Below are positions 8,950 to 48,144 of a DNA stretch of 64,000 nucleotides, piece after piece. Below the pieces are notes generated by a model. The model saw only the letters and a list, made by a program, of their open reading frames with translations. It was not told the origin of the DNA and did no database searches. How positions within the stretch are numbered: position 1 is the stretch's first letter; every line of letters begins with the position of its first letter. Position numbers and translations under genes: made by a program. This DNA comes from Panopea generosa (lineage: Eukaryota; Mollusca; Bivalvia; Adapedonta; Hiatellidae), in assembly GCA_029582155.1 (NCBI GenBank), contig CM055909.1, forward strand, positions 21,845,347 through 21,909,346. Direction: 5' to 3'.

Positions 8950-10170
8950 TAATATTTATTAGAGGTCATCTCTATTAAGAAACCTTGAAGTCCCCTCTAT
9001 TAGAAGAGCTGGAAGTCACCTCTATTAAGAGACTTAATGGTCACCTCTATTAAAAACCTTGATGTCCACTCTATCAGGAGAACTGGAAGTCACCTCTATT
9101 AAGAGACTAAATGGTCATCTCTATTAAAACCCTTGATGTCCCCTCTATTAGGAGAACTGGAAGTCACCTCTATTAAGAGACTTAATGGTCACCTCTATTA
9201 AAAACCTTGACGTCCCCTCTATCAGGAGAACTGGAAGTCACCTCTATTAAGAGACTTAATGGTCACCTCTATTAAAAACCTTGACGTCCACTCTATCAGG
9301 AGAACTGGAAGTCACCTCTATTAAGAGACTTAATGGTCATCTCTATTAAAAACCTTGATGTCCCCTCTATTAGGAGAACTGGAAGTCACCTCTATTAAGA
9401 GACTTAATGGTCACCTCTGTTAAAAACCTTGACGTCCCCTCTATCAGGAGAACTGGAAGTCACCTCTATAAAGAGACTTAATGGTCATCTCTATTAAAAA
9501 CCTTGACGTCCCTTCTATTAGGAGAACTGGAAGTCAGTTCTATTAAGAGACATAATGGTCACCTCTATTAAAAACCTTGATGTCCCCATTTATCAGGAGA
9601 ACTGGAAGTCACCTCTATTAAGAGACTTAATGGTCATCTCTATTAAAAACCTTGATGTCCCCTCTATCAGGAGAACTGGAAGTCACTTCTATTAAGAGAC
9701 TTAATGGTCACCTCAATTAAAAACCTTGAAGTCCCCTCTATCAGAAGAACTGGAAGTCACCTCTATTAAGAGACTTAATGGTCACCTCTTTTAAGAGACC
9801 TTGAAGTCCCCTCTATCAGGAGAACTGGAAGTCAATCTATTAAGAGACTTAATGGTCACCTCTATTAAGAGACCTTGAAGTCCCCTCTATCAGGAAAACT
9901 GGAAGTCTCCTCTATTAAGAGACTTAATGGTCACCTCTATTAAGACCTTGAAGTCCCCTCTGTCAGGAGAACTGGAAGTCAACCTCTATTAAGAGACTTA
10001 ATGGTCACCTGTATTAAGAGACCTGGTAGTCCCTCCTTTAAAGAGAACTAGACATCTCCTTTTTTTAAAGAGACCAAGAAGCCAAATAGTTTTATTTACA
10101 TTCATTAAAGTCATCTGTCTTCATTAGGAGATCTAAAAATGACTTCAATTAAGAGAACAGAAGTCATAAG
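8950..10170. repeat. Higher-order satellite: 74-bp unit made of three ~25-bp monomers
   Basis: The 74-bp unit recurs about 14 times (for example CTTAATGGTC at 9181 and 9255). Each unit contains three related monomers: GAACTGGAAGTCACCTCTAT, GACTTAATGGTCACCTCTAT and ACCTTGATGTCCCCTCTAT, each followed by TAAGA/TAAAA/CAGGA. Both edges (8950-8990 and 10020-10170) hold degenerate monomers, as expected for an array that grew from the middle. Confidence 0.92.
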
Positions 10171-16333: not shown

Positions 16334-16740
16334 CCCCTTTCTTTCTGCTCAAAGTAAAGAGAGGGCCCTAGTCCCTTTCCCCAAAAGTAAAGGGAGGGCC
16401 CTAGCCCCTTTCCCTAAAAGTAAAGAGAGGACCCTAGCCCCTTTCCCCAAAAGTAAAGAGAGGGCCCTAGCCCCTTTCCCCAAAAGTAAAGAGAGGGCCC
16501 TAGCCCCTTTCCCCAAAAGTAAAGAGAGGGCCCTAGCCCCTTTCCCCAAAAGTAAAGAGAGGGCCCTAGTCCCTTTCCCCAAAGTAAAGAGAGGGCTCTA
16601 GCCCCTTTCCCCAAAAGTAAAGAGAGGACCCTAGTCCCTTTCCCCAAAAGTAAAGGGAGGGCCCTAGCCCCTTTCTCCAAAATGAATAGCGGGTCCTAGT
16701 CCCTTTCTCCAAAATAAAGGGACTTGCCCATTTCCTCCAA
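16334..16740. repeat. 33-bp minisatellite, about 12 units
   Basis: The unit is built from CCCTAGCCCCTTTCCCCAAA plus AGTAAAGAGAGGG. CTTTCCC recurs every 33 bp (for example 16441 and 16474). Because 33 is divisible by 3, long false open frames with an 11-residue repeat (GKGARALSLLL and shifted versions) appear on the minus strand; I do not treat them as genes. The minus strand is G-rich (GGGGAAAGGGGCTAGGG). Confidence 0.92.
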
Positions 16741-17194
16741 AGTGAATTTTTACAAATCTTAAAACCTTGGACCCACATTTATTTCATCTAAGCATTAAGC
16801 AGTCTTTTTTGCTTGAATTATACATTTAGTTTTTAACTTTTAAAATAAATAAGAAAGTATATTGAATTAATGTAAATAAATTTTTGAACTACTCCATCAA
16901 TAAAATTATTTGAGGCCCTTCAGCATACACATTTCTAAGTACATCATCTTTTAAAGTGAATAAAAAGTGGGCTTGTCATGCCTCAGATCTGCACAACAGC
17001 TGAATGCTGATCAATAGTTTGATTATATTACATATTCTGGCTTCAAACTGCAGGTACCACAGATAACTGTACGATGGTTCCTACGATCCATCTGCAGCTT
17101 AAAAAGTTCTTCTCCAGCACAGGTATATAATTATGTTTTAATAACTTTATAAACAAACAAAAATTAATACAAGTATGAACAAACACACATTTTA
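16741..17194. other. Intronic; nothing recognised
   Basis: AT-rich; leads directly into the 34-bp satellite. Confidence 0.45.
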
Positions 17195-18235
17195 CAGATC
17201 AACTCAGATGATACAAACACACATTTTACAGATCAACTCAGATGATGCAAACACACATTTTACAGATCAACTCAGATGATACAAACACACATTTTACAAA
17301 TCATTAAACTTAGATGATACAAACACACATTTTACAGATCAACTCAGATGATACAAACACTCATTTTACAGAACAACTTATATGATACAAACACACATTT
17401 TACAGATCAACTCAGATGATACAAACACTCATTTTACAGAACAACTTAGATGATACAAACACACATTTTACAGATCAACTGTGATGATACAAACACTCAT
17501 TTTACAGATCAACTCAGATGATACAAACACACATTTTACAGATCAACTCAGATGATACAAACGTATATTTTACAGATCAACTCAGATGATACAAACACTC
17601 ATTTTACAGATCAACTCAGATGATGCAAACACACATTTTACAGATCAACTCAGGTGATACAAACACACATTTTACAGATCAACTCAGATGATACAAACAC
17701 ACATTTTACAGATCAACTCAGATGATACAAACATATATTTTACAGATCAACTCAGATGATACAAACACTCATTTTACAGATCAACTCAGATGATGCAAAC
17801 ACACATTTTACAGATCAACTCAGATGATACAAACACACATTTTACAGATCAACTCAGATGATGCAAACACACATTTTACAGATCAACTCAGATGATGCAA
17901 ACACTCATTTTACAGACCAACTTAGATGATACAAACACACATTTTACAGATCAACTCAGATGATACAAACACTCATTTTACAGATCAACTCAGATGATAC
18001 AAACACACATTTTACAGATCAACTCAGATGATACAAACACACATTTTACAGATCAACTCAGATGATGCAAACACCCATTTTACAAATCAACTCAGGTGAT
18101 ACAAAAATTCACATTTTACAGATCATTAAACTTTGATGATACAAACACTCATTTTACAGATCATTTTAGATGATACAAACACTCATTTTATGGACCAACA
18201 TAGATGATACAAACAGATATGTTACAGATAAACTT
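17195..18235. repeat. 34-bp satellite, about 30 units
   Basis: Unit ACACACATTTTACAGATCAA plus CTCAGATGATACAA, period 34 bp (ACATTTTACA at 17221 and 17255). Variants ACTCATTTT, TATATTTT and GATGCAA recur in the same order: the variant block at about 17561 is repeated at about 17731, 170 bp (5 units) apart. Units decay towards both ends. Confidence 0.92.
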
Positions 18236-19099: not shown

Positions 19100-20235
19100 C
19101 TAGACCTATCACTGAAGGTGATGAATACCCCCGAACGCCGCCATGACAGAAAATGGTTAACCATTGTATGAAGTTTTATTAAATTATATCCAATATTTTT
19201 AAAGTTATGCTCCAGACAAAAAAAATTCTTAATAAAAAAGAATGTTATGGATTGAGTTTTTTGTATTGTTAATTTTTTTATGGTTTTGTTAAAATTAAAA
19301 ATGGTCTTTTTAATTATTGTGCAGTGTACAAGCTTTCATGGCAATCAATAAATGTTATACTTTTTCGAGTTATGTTGAGGGACAACAATTTTATGGATAA
19401 GAAACAAACAAGAGCACTAGGAATACAATATCAAACCTGCTTTACTCCATGTATTCATCAACTTGGTTCCTTCATGAACTTTATTAAACTGTTATCACTG
19501 ATGGCTTTAAAAGTACTTTAAAAGTACTGCACCAGACAAGGGAAATATATCAAAGGGCAATAACTCTGTAATTAGCAAGAATAGAGTTATGTTTCTTGTA
19601 CACTGTACATCCTGTCATTATATTCTACCATTGTATGAAGTTTGATGAAATTCCATCCAGTACTTTAAAAGTAATGCTCCGGACAAGGGAAATATATCAA
19701 AGGGCAATAACTCTGTAATTAGCAAGAATAAAGTTATGTTTCTTGTACACTGCACTTCCTGTCAATATATTCTACCATTGTATGAAGTTTGATGAAATTC
19801 CATCCAGTACTTTAAAAGTAATGCTCCGGACAAGGGAAATATATCAAAGGGCAATAACTCTGTAATTAGCAAGAACAGAGTTATGTTTCCTGTACACTGC
19901 ACTTCCTCTCATTATATTCTACCATTGTATGAAGCTTGATGAAATTCCATCTGGTACTTTTCAAGTTATGCTCCGGACAAGAAAAAATATTAAAGGGCAA
20001 TAACTCTGTAATTAGCAAGAATAGAGTTATGTTTCTTGTACACTGCACTTCCTCTCATTATATTCTACCATTGTATGACGTTTGATGAAATTCCATCCAG
20101 TACTTTTCAAGTGATGCTCCGGACAAGGAAAATTGCAACGGACAGACCGACCAACAGACCGACAGACCGACAGATAGACCTCAGGGTGACTCCAATATAT
20201 CCCCTCAAAACTTCGTTTGTCGGGGGTATAATGAT
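19100..20235 (+). mobile_element. Pearl-like (Helitron-derived) element 1
   Basis: It has the pearl layout: a left part beginning near GGTGATGAATACCCCCGAAC; core repeats of about 147 bp (GACAAG at 19535, 19682, 19829, 19976 and 20122); a microsatellite of ACAGACCGACC type (20137-20180); then a tail with hairpin TATATCCCC ... GGGGGTATA (20196-20229). Elements of this layout are known in bivalves as non-autonomous Helitron derivatives. The first two core units (19150-19450) are more diverged than the last four. Open frames here come from the repeat. Confidence 0.75.
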
Positions 20236-36164: not shown

Positions 36165-36330
36165 CAAAGGCTGGGCCAGTTTAGCTCAATCAGTAACAGC
36201 ACTCTGAATACCAGTCCAGGAGTCATGAGGTTAAATCCCCACCCAGCTGCAGTCTCCCTGTTGACAAGGTGTCTCCCACTACATGAGATCCTGAATCTGC
36301 CACTGTTACTCAAAAACTCTGTACAGACCC
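36165..36330 (+). mobile_element. tRNA-like SINE head (S4-like or separate family)
   Basis: GTTTAGCTCAATCAGTAACA is A-box-like and GAGGTTAAATCCCCACCC is B-box-like, followed by CAGTCTCCCTGTTGACAAGG. Similar in plan to S4, but the body diverges after 36250. Confidence 0.5.
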
Positions 36331-36499
36331 CAATGATATACACCCTGATTCCACCCTTACACAAAACACCAAACTGTAAATATACATAACCAATGACTTT
36401 TGTAGACTTTGATTGACAGGATAATCTATTCCAACAGAAACATGGCTACACAGCTGAAGTATACATCAAAACTGTCAAATACATCAGAATATTCATCAG

Positions 36500-36503
36500 T
36501 GAT
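36500..36503. other. Left TGAT target-site duplication of the 4.8-kb element
   Basis: TGAT directly precedes GGGCCCTTCTC; the same four bases follow the right end at 41341-41344. Confidence 0.85.
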
Positions 36504-36676
36504 GGGCCCTTCTCAGCTATTAGGAAATTATCTCTCAAATTTTAGATATGGATAAAACCACTTAATTTCAGTTCATGACACTTATAGATATATCATAAAT
36601 GCTTAAACTGATAATAAAAAGATAGCGTAGGGCTTATTTAACAACTTTTTATTGTTTTCAGTAAAGACACCACAAA

Positions 36677-36690
36677 GTGACGCCCATTAT
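36677..36690 (+). repeat. Subterminal GTGACGCCCATTAT motif
   Basis: First of five near-identical motifs; followed by CTTGACAAAT. Possible transposase-binding site (inference from position and repetition). Confidence 0.6.
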
Positions 36691-36845
36691 CTTGACAAAT
36701 CTAATTTTCATTTTAAACAGTTTTTTCCTGCCAAAATCACTATTAAGTAACTGTTAAGTAATTCATTTATCCGGTTTTCATACACTGGAAACAACTACCA
36801 TTAAGAAAAAGTTCCTTTTTTTTTTCTGTTGTACAGTTAAAAATA

Positions 36846-36860
36846 GTGACGCCTATTACT
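36846..36860 (+). repeat. Subterminal GTGACGCCTATTACT motif
   Basis: Second motif, same orientation as the first. Confidence 0.65.
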
Positions 36861-37054
36861 TTTATTCCTGGCTGCATTTCTTTTTTTCCTTTAAGCAGAT
36901 CCTCTTTCCCATAGAAAATCCTGTTATGGACAAGTCAATCAGATTTCTTCAAATGTCTTTCATATTATATTTTAGAGTTAAAGTGACATTTAATAATTAT
37001 ATAGACACTTTTATGTACGGACATTACTGTTGACATTTTGACAACCAAAAAAAA

Positions 37055-37069
37055 GTGACGCCTATTACT
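37055..37069 (+). repeat. Subterminal GTGACGCCTATTACT motif
   Basis: Third motif; a shortened relative ACGGACATTACTGTTGACA lies just upstream at 37018. Confidence 0.65.
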
Positions 37070-37442
37070 CCAATATCATTTGTAATAAATAATATTATTT
37101 GAATACCCCTGAAGTGGTGTATCAAGTGGTAAAGAAATTAACTTTACCTGTGACTCCATATGCATTTAAGTGGACTATTCTCAAATTTTACTCATCTAAT
37201 TAAACACACAATTAAGGTGAAAATTTTTTATTGATTTTTATTGAAACATGTACATACATCCAATATGAATGATTTGCACTTGGGTAAAACACAATAAAGG
37301 ACACAAACGCTATAATCAATTCAAATAGTTATTATAAGTTGATAATAATTAAAGATATAGCTGCAAGATATAAATGGAACCTTAAGATGGCATTATTTTT
37401 TGTTTTTAACATCTGTTTGTCATAAACATTTGAATATTTTAA

Positions 37443-37998
37443 ACCCTTGTATATACGCATGATACTATCACACGCGACACTACGTCACAAATCACTTTAT
37501 CATAGTCAATATTGTGTTTGTTAAGTTCAGTTATTAAAAGCGTAAATTTATTTTTAATTCTATATGGTTGATTCGTTGCTAACATGCAATAAATTAGCTT
37601 GTGGGTTCCAGTTCATTAATACGCCAAGGGGAACAAAGGGGATGTTCTTAAAAACTTTCAAACTGCAGACGGTTATTTGAATTTTTAACTGCATCCCCTA
37701 CAGTTCACCATACTATGTTTCTCTCTGAAATGAAGTGATCATATATTACCAACCGAGGCGTTCCAAAATTAGTCCTCGTTTTCTGTTCAATGTATTTATC
37801 GAAAAGAGACGAACATTAATTTGTAAACAAAACCCGTTCATAATTATGTACTAGCTAATAATATGCTTTATATTTATTTTTCCATTTGCAAAGTCTCAGT
37901 AATCAAATAAACATGTATTCTATTATTGTGAAGATTAAAACTGACTTGCATTAAAACTAAAAACAACTGTTTAGGAAGTTTAATGAGTCTTTAAATAA
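37443..37998 (+). repeat. Dispersed repeat R3, copy inside the 4.8-kb element
   Basis: Matches, in reverse, 47160-47670. Shared pieces: ATGATACT-TC, GTCAATATTG, ATGCAATAAATTAGCTTGTG, GGTTCCAGTTCATTAATAC, GACGAACATTAATTTGTAAA and GAAGTTTAATGAG-CTTTAA. It ends just before the stop of the decayed gene's last possible exon. Class unknown. Confidence 0.75.
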
Positions 37999-38007
37999 TT
38001 ATGGACA

Positions 38008-38196
38008 CTACAAAAAGAAAATGATAATAAGATCTTGAGCCAATCTGTAACAAGGCTGGTTGATCAAGACGGTGCACAATATCAAAATTGGAGACAAAAA
38101 GAAGTTTTTGTTCCAACATCCAGCCTGCCCTTGACTGTAAAACTGGACCCATATCCCATGGGTGTCAGCTAGTTCATCATTAGGTGGTGAGACAAA
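38008..38196 (-). pseudogene. Possible further exon of the element's gene
   Basis: A TATATTTTTCAG acceptor is followed by 62 open codons (FVSPPNDELADTHGIWVQFY...) ending at TAG (38010-38008). Its phase does not match the donor at 38488, so either an exon is missing or the frame is already lost. The protein is not recognised. Confidence 0.35.
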
Positions 38197-38488
38197 CTGA
38201 AAAATATATAACAAATTGTTTAGAAATTATAAATTTATAAATTATTTACAATAAATTTAACTCTTTTTACAATAGAGTATCAGTACAGAACTTATTAATG
38301 TTTTTGCAAAGAAATTTTGTTTTATTTACCATCATGGTGAGTATCATTTCAATACATTCAGACACTAAACAACCTAGCAACATGGATTTTTTACATGGTT
38401 GACTGCAGTAGTACTACTTAAATGAACCAGTAAGTAAGTTCTATTGAAAGCTTGCTTTGATGAAATACATTGGTGTATAGATACTGAC

Positions 38489-40616
38489 CTCAGGTCAGCT
38501 TGATGATCAGTTAACTGTGATAGTACAGTAGTGGGTGGGTCATCAGTCACAGCTGGAGACATGTTCATCAAGATTGAATCTTCATTCGCTGGTCTATTAG
38601 ACGGGTCAGTCGAGAGTGGGTCAATCTCTGTGAGACTAGACAGGTTAGTTGAGAGTTTGGTGTGATGAACGGACGCGAAGTTAACAAATTATGCTTTTCC
38701 GTTCTTTGGTGCCAAGCAATCTTCTTTCTCAGCCTTTCTTTTTCTTTGAAAACAGGATCATTCTTCCTTTGTTCTGGATACCTGATGACATCAAATGCAT
38801 GTTTTAAATATAAGACATACCTCTATTGTTATATATATCAGAAATTATATGTGTAAGTTGTTAATATGTGTATGTGAAAGCTTGATTCTTATAAAACAAC
38901 TAAAAAGTCTCCAAGCAAAAGCTATAATTTCATTTTATAAAGAACTCTATGTTTAATAGTATAGATCTTTATCTTGAGAAAAATTCAGACTTTTGTGACC
39001 AATGTTGACCCAGATCAGACTAGGTTTCTGCATAGCCTGATCCTCTATGCTGTTTACAAATATTGATTTAAAACTTTAATTAATAAAATCATTCACTGAT
39101 GAAATAGCAAACAATATTGACTACACTGTACGAAAGTTAAGGTTAATCTGGTTGTACGCAAGTCATAAATGTCTGACCGCGTCCTTTTTTCTCGCAAGAC
39201 TGCTCATATAATTATATAGTAGTGTACTAAATTAATTGATTTAATTATTTTACCTTTTTGGTCTTTCAGCAGGAGTTTATGTCAAGTTATTACTATTACT
39301 GCTAATAGGTTTTGGTTCCTTTGCTGTAGGTGCACAGAGATCATGGATATTCTGCAAAATAAATGTACCATTTAGCTTTTGTTGTACCTTTTACCGAATA
39401 ACTGGCATTTAAAATGGTACTTCAAAGTCCAACATAGAAATTACATGCAATTTTCATATATTTTTCATACTTATTGTGATAGAAGAAAAAACAGTGTAGG
39501 GCATGTGATGATTTCTTATTACTTTGATTAAAACTGGTCCTTCACCTATTTCAAAAGCCTTCTGCACTGGGGGTGGGGGTGGCAGCATTCTCCACAAGTT
39601 TGGGGTAGGGAGATATGTGTAAGCAGTATAGGGTTTAACATTTTTGACAAAACTCTTTTGTTTATATTCAAATTATTCTGTAACAGCATTGGATGTGTTG
39701 GACATAATGAACTATTTTTAAACCATGTCAAACATAATTTCCATCACGAAAACAGTACAAACATTGTTATTATTTATGCTAAGCCAATTTTAAATTGTAA
39801 AACTCTATTAACAATTAATATTCCAAGAAAAAACAATCACTTGAAAGATGACACTGATGCTTGCTTTAAAATTCTAATCACAAATTACATTTCTGTATTT
39901 GGAAAATTACTTTTGACAAGACAGTCTGGTCAAAATAACTGCCAAACTACTATTTGATAGTTAAGTGTTGACAGTTGGAAGTTAGTCTCTTGCTCCAAAA
40001 ATTATGAATAAAGTTTATATTTTCTTAATGTTTTTAAAGGCTACATAAAATTTTAACTGAAAAATACAAATAAAACGCCTCATGCATGTGATGGAAATTA
40101 TGATTGACATATATTTGATGACGGACATTATTCTTGACAAAATACTAACAGATTTAGTCTATCACGCATACATCGTCAAAGCATAATTTCCGAATAAAAA
40201 ATCAAAATATTTTCTCTTATATATTCTGCACACACTTTAAATGTAAGAGGCCAACAGCTACAGCCAAGTCATCATCATTAAAAGTCTTATTCAATCGAGT
40301 CAGCATCAAAAATGAAATAAATATGAATAAAGCATGAACGGCAATTACTTCTCAGATAAATGTCTGTCAATAAAAATGTCCGTACAGACAAGTTCTGTCA
40401 AACTGTAATTGCCGATCTCGACTTTTCTAAAATACTCCTGAAAGTAAGGAGAATACTCTCGTGTGTCCGTGTGTCATCTCTCTAATCCATGTACACTGCT
40501 ATCGTTACTTCGAATTATACACAAGTATTGTGTTGGGATGATAAAACAATGATTCAATTTTTCTGTGACGCCCATTACTTGGCTGAGCGGTTGACAGACA
40601 TCAAACTTACCTCCAT
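38489..40616 (-). pseudogene. Decayed spliced gene of the 4.8-kb element (three exons)
   Basis: Exon 1 ends ATGGAG|GTAAGT (ATG at 40616-40614). Exon 2 (39254-39351) follows TTTATTTTGCAG and ends AAAAAG|GTAAAA; it is open in phase with exon 1 except for one TAA after SSNSNNLT. Exon 3 (38489-38781) follows ATGTCATCAG and ends CTGAG|GTCAGT. Across the exon 2/3 join the frame reads AERPKRYPEQRKNDPVFKEK then ERLRKK, a basic coiled segment of a type common in uncharacterised transposon proteins of invertebrates. About 20 codons later the frame must shift to stay open (HHTKLSTNLSSLTEIDPLST...). One stop plus one frameshift mean it is dead. The function, probably element mobility, is inferred from location only. 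Confidence 0.55.
40565..40579 (+). repeat. GTGACGCCCATTACT motif, right half
   Basis: Fourth motif, just downstream (gene sense) of the exon 1 donor; same orientation as those at the left end. Confidence 0.6.
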
Positions 40617-41300
40617 ATTTTTGTTTTATGTAAAATCTGCACTGGTATCGATGACGTAGTACACATAAAACGGTCTCAGGCAAATTTTAACTCCCGATAA
40701 AAAAGTCCCCTAGATCGTTTTAGTGGATTCGTGACTCGGCATACGCCAATTACGGAATTGACGGACATTTCGATTCCCGAATAAAATTTGAATTTTACAG
40801 CTTTGTCATTGTTATATACAAAGTGTGTTATTTTAAAACCTACGATGGAAATATGTTTTCCAAACATGTGGATGTTCTTTGATCATCACAACATGATTAA
40901 TATATTTTTTTTAATGCCGGCAACTCTTCTTGTTTTGACGGATGCCGTAATAGGCGTATGCATCAATTTCTAACAAGTTTTTTTTATCAATTGTAACATA
41001 TTCATTTACTAGTTATAGTGAATAGTTACAAGTATTATTTCATTTAAATATTAGCAAATGACTTACTGTTGTCATATAGATTAAAAGGGGAAAATTTGGC
41101 CATGATTGAAGTCCCCTCATTTTCCAGCCAAAATGGATGACGGATATTCCTTGACATTTCAAGTTTCAAATACAAATTTGATCCATTTTCTGAGAATTGA
41201 GTCAAGATATTGTTTTTTCTATCTGAGGAATTAACAAACAACAAATTTAAAACATAGTTTTTTATTTATCTTATTTCTAATAGAAAATACAATTTAAAAA

Positions 41301-41314
41301 GTGACGGCCATTAC
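41301..41314 (+). repeat. GTGACGGCCATTAC motif adjoining the right TIR
   Basis: Fifth motif, 8 bp from the right TIR (41323-41340). Confidence 0.6.
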
Positions 41315-41340
41315 TATTTCCAAATAGCTGAGAAGGGCCC

Positions 41341-41344
41341 TGAT
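41341..41344. other. Right TGAT target-site duplication
   Basis: Immediately follows GGGCCC of the right TIR and equals 36500-36503. Confidence 0.85.
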
Positions 41345-41659
41345 AACCAATGATAAACTGCAATAACTCCCTATCTACCCCTGTTCTACATGGCCTCTGC
41401 ATCCACATCCAGATTATCTCCCAGATAATCCTATTATTGTCTCATGAAAAAATAGGATTTAGCATGAAAATATCTGCGGACATTGATATATTGGACATGA
41501 TTAGAACATGATCACTGGTTGATTAATATAATTGAACACAGATTAACATCATCTGAAGCCTCATTCATCTTCCATAATTAGTTTTTCATTCTCATTTAGT
41601 CTGGCAATGTCAAATAGCAATAAACTATAGGAATTATTGTAAACTTTTTTTTTAAACTC

Positions 41660-47159: not shown

Positions 47160-47670
47160 TAAATCTTAAAGGCTCATTAAACTTCTGAAACGGTCGTTTA
47201 TATTTTTAATTTAAGTCAGTTTTACTCTTCCAGATGATAGAATACATGTTTATTTGATCACCGAGAGACTTCGCAAACGAAAAAAATAAATAATAAGCAC
47301 AGTCATTATTAGTACAGAACTTAGAATGCGTTTTGTTTACAAATTAATGTTCGTCCTTTCTGATTAACACATTCGAAAGAAAACAGTGAGTTACTAAGTT
47401 TGTTAGGAAACGCGTTGGTCGGTAATAAAAATTAAATAACCACTTGCAGTTAGACATCCCCTTTATTCCCCACAGTGTATTAATGAACTGGAACCCACAA
47501 GCTTATTTATTGCATGTAAGCGACAAATCGTTCATATAAAATTAAAAATAAGATTACTTTTTAAATAACTGTACTAATCAAACCACCCTTGGTAGCCTCT
47601 CAATATTGACTGGGATATGTAATAGCTGCGACAGTATCACATGTATCTGCAAGGGAGGATTCTGAGCAAG
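47160..47670 (-). repeat. Dispersed repeat R3, second copy (inverted)
   Basis: Reverse complement of 37443-37998. An isolated AGTTTAATGAGGCTTTA at 48125 looks like one more R3 end. Confidence 0.75.
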
Positions 47671-48144
47671 TGTTACTAGACCAAACTAGTATTTCGTACA
47701 CATTAATTTTTCAGTGTGTATAGATAATTTGGATTCAGTTTTATTGCAGACATCAATAGATTCAAAACAAAAAAAGAAAACCCAATAACGATACATAATA
47801 TTAGTGAAGCCATAACTTTTCCAATCTTGTTAATGAACCCCTTATTTAACGGTCTTATTCCACATACTACCACTGCAGTATTCATTTGTGTATTTCCGAA
47901 CACTGCCGGGGTTCAGTCCGAAAGCAACCAAGTCATTACGGAATTACGAAAATGTAAACAAAAATTAAAGCCTCAGTCCCCACGTCTAAGAAACACATTT
48001 GATGAAACTATTTGTTATGTTGTTTTTTTAAAAACAGTTACTAAGGGGTCTACAGGAATGGTTTCAGCAATACTATAAACACATTTTATTACAATCATTT
48101 TTGTTATTATCAAAAAAGTGTGAAGTTTAATGAGGCTTTATGGT
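47671..48144. other. 5' flank or upstream intron; no gene supported
   Basis: The minus-strand frame at 47703-47903 encodes a hydrophobic stretch (MASLILCIVIGFSFFVLNLL), but it has no splice framing and no recognisable family. Confidence 0.4.

Follow-up and report, generated by a model that had tools for sequence, protein, structure and literature searches.

A probably non-autonomous, Sola-like DNA transposon of Panopea generosa and its long copies with a predicted DDD transposase

The element, its ends and its gene remnant

We analysed a stretch of 64,000 nucleotides from the bivalve Panopea generosa (GenBank assembly GCA_029582155.1, contig CM055909.1, positions 21,845,347 to 21,909,346 of the forward strand; hereafter the window), which harbours a 4,837-bp DNA transposon at positions 36504–41340, and followed this element and its relatives through the host genome (1.474 Gb in 39 contigs). 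A preliminary description, made from the letters of the window alone, had presented it as a complete-looking 4.8-kb transposon of uncertain superfamily carrying a dead spliced gene. The ends are indeed complete, but the interior is that of a deletion form devoid of the catalytic exon. The features of the element are listed below; L numbers designate genomic loci used for comparison, and C3 is one of two long copies introduced further on.

36504–41340, plus strand: whole element, 4837 bp, belonging to a subfamily marked by a 343-bp deletion within a non-autonomous family of 5.18-kb elements
36500–36503: left target-site duplication (TSD) TGAT, directly outside the left end
41341–41344: right TSD TGAT, directly outside the right end
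36504–36528, plus strand: left terminal inverted repeat (TIR), 25 bp
41316–41340, minus strand: right TIR, 25 bp
36677–36690, plus strand: subterminal motif 1, GTGACGCCCATTAT, element position 174
36846–36859, plus strand: subterminal motif 2, GTGACGCCTATTAC, element position 343
37055–37068, plus strand: subterminal motif 3, GTGACGCCTATTAC, element position 552
40565–40578, plus strand: subterminal motif 4, GTGACGCCCATTAC, 775 from the right end, at an equal distance in the long partner copies
41301–41314, plus strand: subterminal motif 5, GTGACGGCCATTAC, 39 from the right end, at an equal distance in the long partner copies
About 37424–37921 (approximate limits): relics of another interspersed repeat that sits inside the element and is absent from C3; the 343-bp deletion maps to about 37443/37444
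37991–38226, minus strand: probable further 3' exon remnant (...VSPPNDELADTHGIWVQFYS...), homologue of L029 1312–1569
38374–38688, minus strand: frame homologous to L029 2351–2671, which lies in the 3' part of the long copies; adjoins exon 2 through the deletion
38695–38781, minus strand: transposase exon 2 remnant (YPEQRKNDPVFKEKERLRKKIAWHQRTEK), starting YPEQRKNDPVFKEKERLRKKIAW... and truncated near 38694 by the deletion
39254–39351, minus strand: transposase exon 1 remnant (...NNLT*TPAERPK) with one in-frame TAA and the splice donor AAG/GTAAAA

The TIRs read GGGCCCTTCTCAGCTATT(A/T)GGAAAT and match at 24 of 25 positions. The matching 18-bp ends reported earlier correspond to their first 18 bp, which are perfect, and the TGAT duplication, likewise perfect, adjoins the element directly on both sides. 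With at most one mismatch, the motif GTGACGCCCATTAC occurs five times in the element and is absent from the 59,155 bases of the window outside it, as the five GTGACG-CC-ATTAC motifs noticed near the ends had suggested; 20 roughly dinucleotide-preserving shuffles gave a mean of 0.0 occurrences. The motifs form direct rather than inverted repeats, since all five share one orientation. We regard them as candidate transposase-binding sites, to which the enzyme probably binds.

The minus-strand gene is a stub of a transposase gene that retains two short exons for the N-terminus together with 3' fragments, the catalytic exon having been deleted. Exons 1 and 2 are separated by a GT/AG intron with a phase-2 junction. 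This agrees with part of the three-exon frame proposed previously, for which the third exon is represented only by candidates (38374–38688 and 37991–38226); the latter lies in two frames in the window and in a single frame in the long copy (L029 1312–1569). The in-frame stop to which the death of the gene had been ascribed was found in all 21 copies examined, the window copy among them, but the loss of the catalytic core has disabled the gene as well. The supposed connection of this gene with mobility is borne out, and the failure of the preliminary description to recognise a catalytic domain is explained by the absence of that exon from the window copy.

Of the stop-to-stop frames that overlap the element, the largest spans 141 codons on the strand opposite to the remnant gene. 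Searching 15 of the 45 element frames of at least 40 codons against Pfam returned nothing convincing (best match KH_GLD-3, E 0.11, far below the cut-off), and Rfam returned nothing at gathering score in the window. The interspersed repeat nested in the short form (37424–37921; L015 726–1240) recurs some 10 kb downstream, at 47244–47957 of the window; its copies are 73–81% identical.

Copies, target sites and age of the family

Genome-wide, 131 exact instances of the 18-bp end are present (66 forward and 65 reverse), against none of the reversed pattern used as a control. Among 100 of these end places that were listed, 92 belong to facing pairs, which amounts to at least 46 pairs. The listed pairs are mostly 4,742–5,185 bp long (40/46), and the remaining six measure 3,045, 5,249, 5,357, 7,376, 9,980 and 10,676 bp. 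Using the left 400 bp of the element as a query yielded 86 candidates, 40 of which were scored, each matching at 99–100% over the full query.

We scanned 28 loci and counted 20 copies, excluding L001–L008 (3,400 bp each), which are too short to contain both ends and repeat places covered by other loci or by the window. Both ends were present in all 20 fetched copies and an exact 4-bp duplication flanked 17 of them, i.e. 18/21 with the window copy and 21/24 upon addition of the copies C3, C10 and C1. Agreement never extended over 5–8 bp (0/21 copies). The duplication had been expected always to be 4 bp long; its length is exact in these 21 copies, but L009, L010 and L019 have unequal flanks and no exact TSD, which could result from later mutation or recombination. 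The duplicated sequences are mostly AT-rich (TGAT, AGAG, ATAT, AAAT, ATAC and others). ATAT is the commonest target among the 21 exact sites, with a pyrimidine before it in 13/21 and a purine after it in 17/21.

The recurrence of the same boundaries together with the TSD elsewhere in the genome, a test that could have refuted the proposed element, establishes it as a real, multi-copy DNA transposon with real boundaries. The three copies out of 21 with unequal flanks would be compatible with inverted repeats and a duplication brought together by chance or recombination, in the absence of any transposon. The numbers of exact ends, set against the empty control, and of exact 4-bp TSDs refute this explanation, to which we attach a negligible probability.

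The 21 copies diverge from their majority sequence by 0.27–0.56% and from each other by 0.6% on average, with a minimum of zero when gaps are ignored. A 343-bp deletion and an 8-bp insertion are common to the window copy, L009, L010, L012, L018, L021 and L022, whose mean pairwise divergence is 0.34%. The usual form of the family is 5.18 kb long and the window form is 343 bp shorter. As the copies with this deletion reside at different sites, the shortened form must itself have been mobilised. Judged from these divergences, the family is a recent burst. Copies devoid of substitutions relative to one another also occupy different sites, and the transposon family may therefore still be mobile today.

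The long copies and their predicted transposase

Two of the long facing pairs, C3 (10,676 bp; L029 and L030) and C10 (9,980 bp; L031 and L032), share the exact 18-bp ends with the short form. Each is flanked by an ATAT duplication, their flanking sequences differ, and they are 99.5% identical over shared segments. All five GTGACG motifs are recognisable in them with no more than two mismatches, and four with no more than one, at distances from the ends equal to those of the short form to plus or minus one base. A stretch of approximately 4.1–4.4 kb that is absent from the short form carries an open exon of 711 codons in C3 and 791 codons in C10, the latter with additional repeats near its C-terminal end. 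The upstream exons of the long copies have phase-2 ends and starts (AG/G), and this junction persists in the window.

Compared with the short form, the terminal parts of C3 and C10 show about 92% identity. We interpret the long copies as relatives and not parents of the short form because they are about 8% apart at the ends, and the absence from C3 of the repeat nested at about 37424–37921 points in the same direction.

Another facing pair, L033 (C1:72536975–72544350; 7,376 bp), corresponds to the short form at 91–94% identity, split by about 2.7 kb of other sequence; at the break, a piece of the element some 21 bp long is duplicated. It is probably an older short-form member with a nested insertion. 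The long copies also contain a 193-codon frame on the minus strand (L029/L031 3214–3792) made up of tandem repeats of an acidic MQND-type unit, for which Pfam yielded only a sub-threshold match to Fibrinogen_BP, a repetitive family (26 of 50 bits). This frame might represent one more exon or else encode a protein of its own.

A protein search of the genome with the transposase exon identified at least 74 matches, some of them pieces of one copy; this number is a lower bound because 63 of 1,794 candidates were scored. Among the scored matches, two reach at least 98%, a broken relative on C7 is found in pieces at 68–73%, and the best other long match is at 44%. Most of the matching stretches show 28–50% identity and several are stop-free.

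We aligned 12 rows: two from the family of the element, six from L097–L101 and L103, and four shorter ones from L104–L107. L097, L098 and L099 are near copies of each other, as are L100 and L101. L102, which falls into six pieces and whose best stretch has three stops, was left out, along with L095 and L096, which are the same copies as L029 and L031. Two aspartates, D401 and D489, are conserved in 12/12 rows and a third, D530, in 11/12. An AlphaFold model of middling confidence puts these three residues at RNase H catalytic positions; the prediction from a single sequence was unusable (mean pLDDT 36). VIA-align ranks the model closest to retroviral integrase cores, in a match list from which the absence of a transposase family does not exclude that family, and Foldseek retrieved no match at E 0.001. 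Our model suggests that the partner enzyme is probably a transposase with an aspartate triad (DDD), whose catalysis is predicted. Its sequence further comprises the motifs MDFxENY, TDGCxxQYK and HGKGPxDG and a C-terminal SCxCxxC...C cluster.

Library searches with the transposase exon gave no match in Pfam (best among 12 members, E 0.014) or PHROG, nothing better than E 6 in NCBIfam and nothing better than E 0.43 among PDB sequences, libraries from which Sola may simply be absent. Relatives were sought in viral contigs, where the protein search found none and the alignment brought up 32 stretches with 0 confirmed; in prokaryote genomes (36 stretches and 19 stretches, 0 confirmed); and in phages, where tblastn found none. 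A degenerate DNA pattern retrieved 61 stretches from viral contigs, none of which is a relative (best E 0.68).

In another family (C7 and C20), the catalytic exon is followed by tandem PDQQPDVTDPD repeats (L100 1492–4716 and L101 3722–4660), which continue its frame in L100 and occupy a different one in L101. Where homology ends near L097:4453, no recognisable terminus was seen.

Proposed mobilisation in trans and superfamily placement

Our data argue strongly that the element is a non-autonomous, Sola-like DNA transposon, very probably descended from a DDD-transposase ancestor of about 10 kb and moved in trans by full-length partners. In this ancestor, a minus-strand gene spread over several exons would have encoded the DDD transposase (D401-D489-D530). 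A deletion of about 4.1–4.4 kb would have removed the catalytic exon, leaving the inverted repeats, the motif array and the first exons in place. Acting in trans, the partner transposase would bind both the ends and the directly repeated GTGACG motifs, excise the element and, presumably by cut-and-paste, reinsert it into YATATR-like sites through cuts staggered by 4 bp. Because the 5.18-kb form and its 4.84-kb derivative retain the end signals, they would move without a gene of their own, and the long partners probably mobilise them.

Internal-deletion derivatives of the Ac/Ds type are shorter than their autonomous partners, keep the ends of those partners and have lost the transposase core. 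The element likewise keeps the ends of an autonomous partner without the core, but it belongs to another superfamily, and this derivative is large (5.2 kb) and uniform, not miniature.

The partner need not be the long copies themselves. A transposase of another family, among the relatives at 28–50% identity, might move the short elements, with the long copies as passengers or recent arrivals. The abundance of protein matches, several with open frames, and the distance between the ends of the long and short forms would fit this scenario. We nevertheless consider it improbable, given that C3 and C10 have the same exact 18-bp ends as the short form and the five motifs laid out at equal distances; this comparison, a partial test, covers the ends of this family. 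According to PMC4455052, Repbase assigns non-autonomous elements to one superfamily when their TSDs are equally long and their first 11 bases match. By a similar standard (TSD length, first bases) the short and long forms constitute one group, since they agree in both.

Several superfamilies generate TSDs of this length. Sola elements have GRG-type first bases. They are described in PMC10741241 as having a DDD transposase, 4-bp TSDs, lengths of 2–9 kb with some above 15 kb and TIRs of 11–1124 bp, and PMC10294476 reports Sola1, Sola2 and Sola3 from bivalves. The 4-bp TSD, the predicted DDD triad, the lengths of the long copies and the 25-bp TIR all resemble this description, and the first bases are of the GRG type too. 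Sola-like is accordingly the best fit available for the family, as the preliminary description had hinted, and it is a fit by description rather than by sequence comparison to Sola transposases.

Ginger1 and Ginger2 also share the 4-bp TSD, and integrase cores are the best VIA-align matches of our transposase. Ginger2 targets are AT-rich (RTATAY) and Ginger termini read TGTNR, as stated in PMC2836005. Ginger also has a Gypsy-type integrase domain; Pfam matched no integrase family among 12 members of our alignment, although the modelled fold resembles retroviral integrase cores. The third catalytic residue is predicted to be D, not E; we rejected Ginger as the element ends in GGGCCCTTCT (GGGCCC), not TGTNR. 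Kolobok and piggyBac resemble the family in their 4-bp TSD and DDD/E transposase. Their TSDs are TTAA-specific outside the KolobokP lineage, according to PMC9587614, and TTAA occurs in none of 18 exact TSDs, so that both were discarded. The mismatched copy L010 has TTAA on one flank only. KolobokP itself, for which TTAA is optional, comprises solo repeats with 3–5 bp duplications, and that paper reports it to be rich in bivalves. It also describes long terminal direct repeats, about 450 or 660 bp in size, and a C/DxxH motif common to Kolobok. By contrast, the longest direct repeat in 36300–41500 is 32 nt, none was detected at the ends of the long copies (C3 compared with C10), and the motif is absent by eye between D489 and D530 in the first alignment row. 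We rejected KolobokP for want of the long repeats and hold it to be very improbable.

A more serious alternative is that the transposase is not Sola but represents a DDD superfamily of its own, as yet undescribed, which likewise generates 4-bp duplications. The lack of convincing matches in the four libraries and the distinctive motifs and cysteine cluster would speak for it. Sola is nonetheless described by the same combination of a DDD transposase and 4-bp TSDs (PMC10741241), is reported from bivalves (PMC10294476), and missing library models would be unsurprising for a rare superfamily. We therefore judge a separate superfamily unlikely. More doubtful still is the specific proposal that this transposase, with its motif core, cysteine cluster and basic N-terminal modules from repeated phase-2 exons, founds a DDD group apart from Sola1-3, abundant, very recently active and using direct subterminal recognition sites.

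Elsewhere in the window, long minisatellite arrays extend over 8964–10033 (74-bp unit), 16351–16719 (33 bp), 17175–18234 (34 bp) and 19512–20133 (147 bp). The 33-bp array overlaps a 121-codon open frame that repeats KERALAPFPKS.

Together, the long and short forms represent a matched autonomous and non-autonomous pair that has been active very recently, with a transposase that the Pfam, NCBIfam and PHROG libraries searched do not recognise. The proposed mechanism is directly testable through its subterminal direct motifs, 4-bp stagger and DDD core. The family also illustrates that a 5.2-kb repeat seemingly bearing a gene can be a passenger, the gene stub being a leftover.

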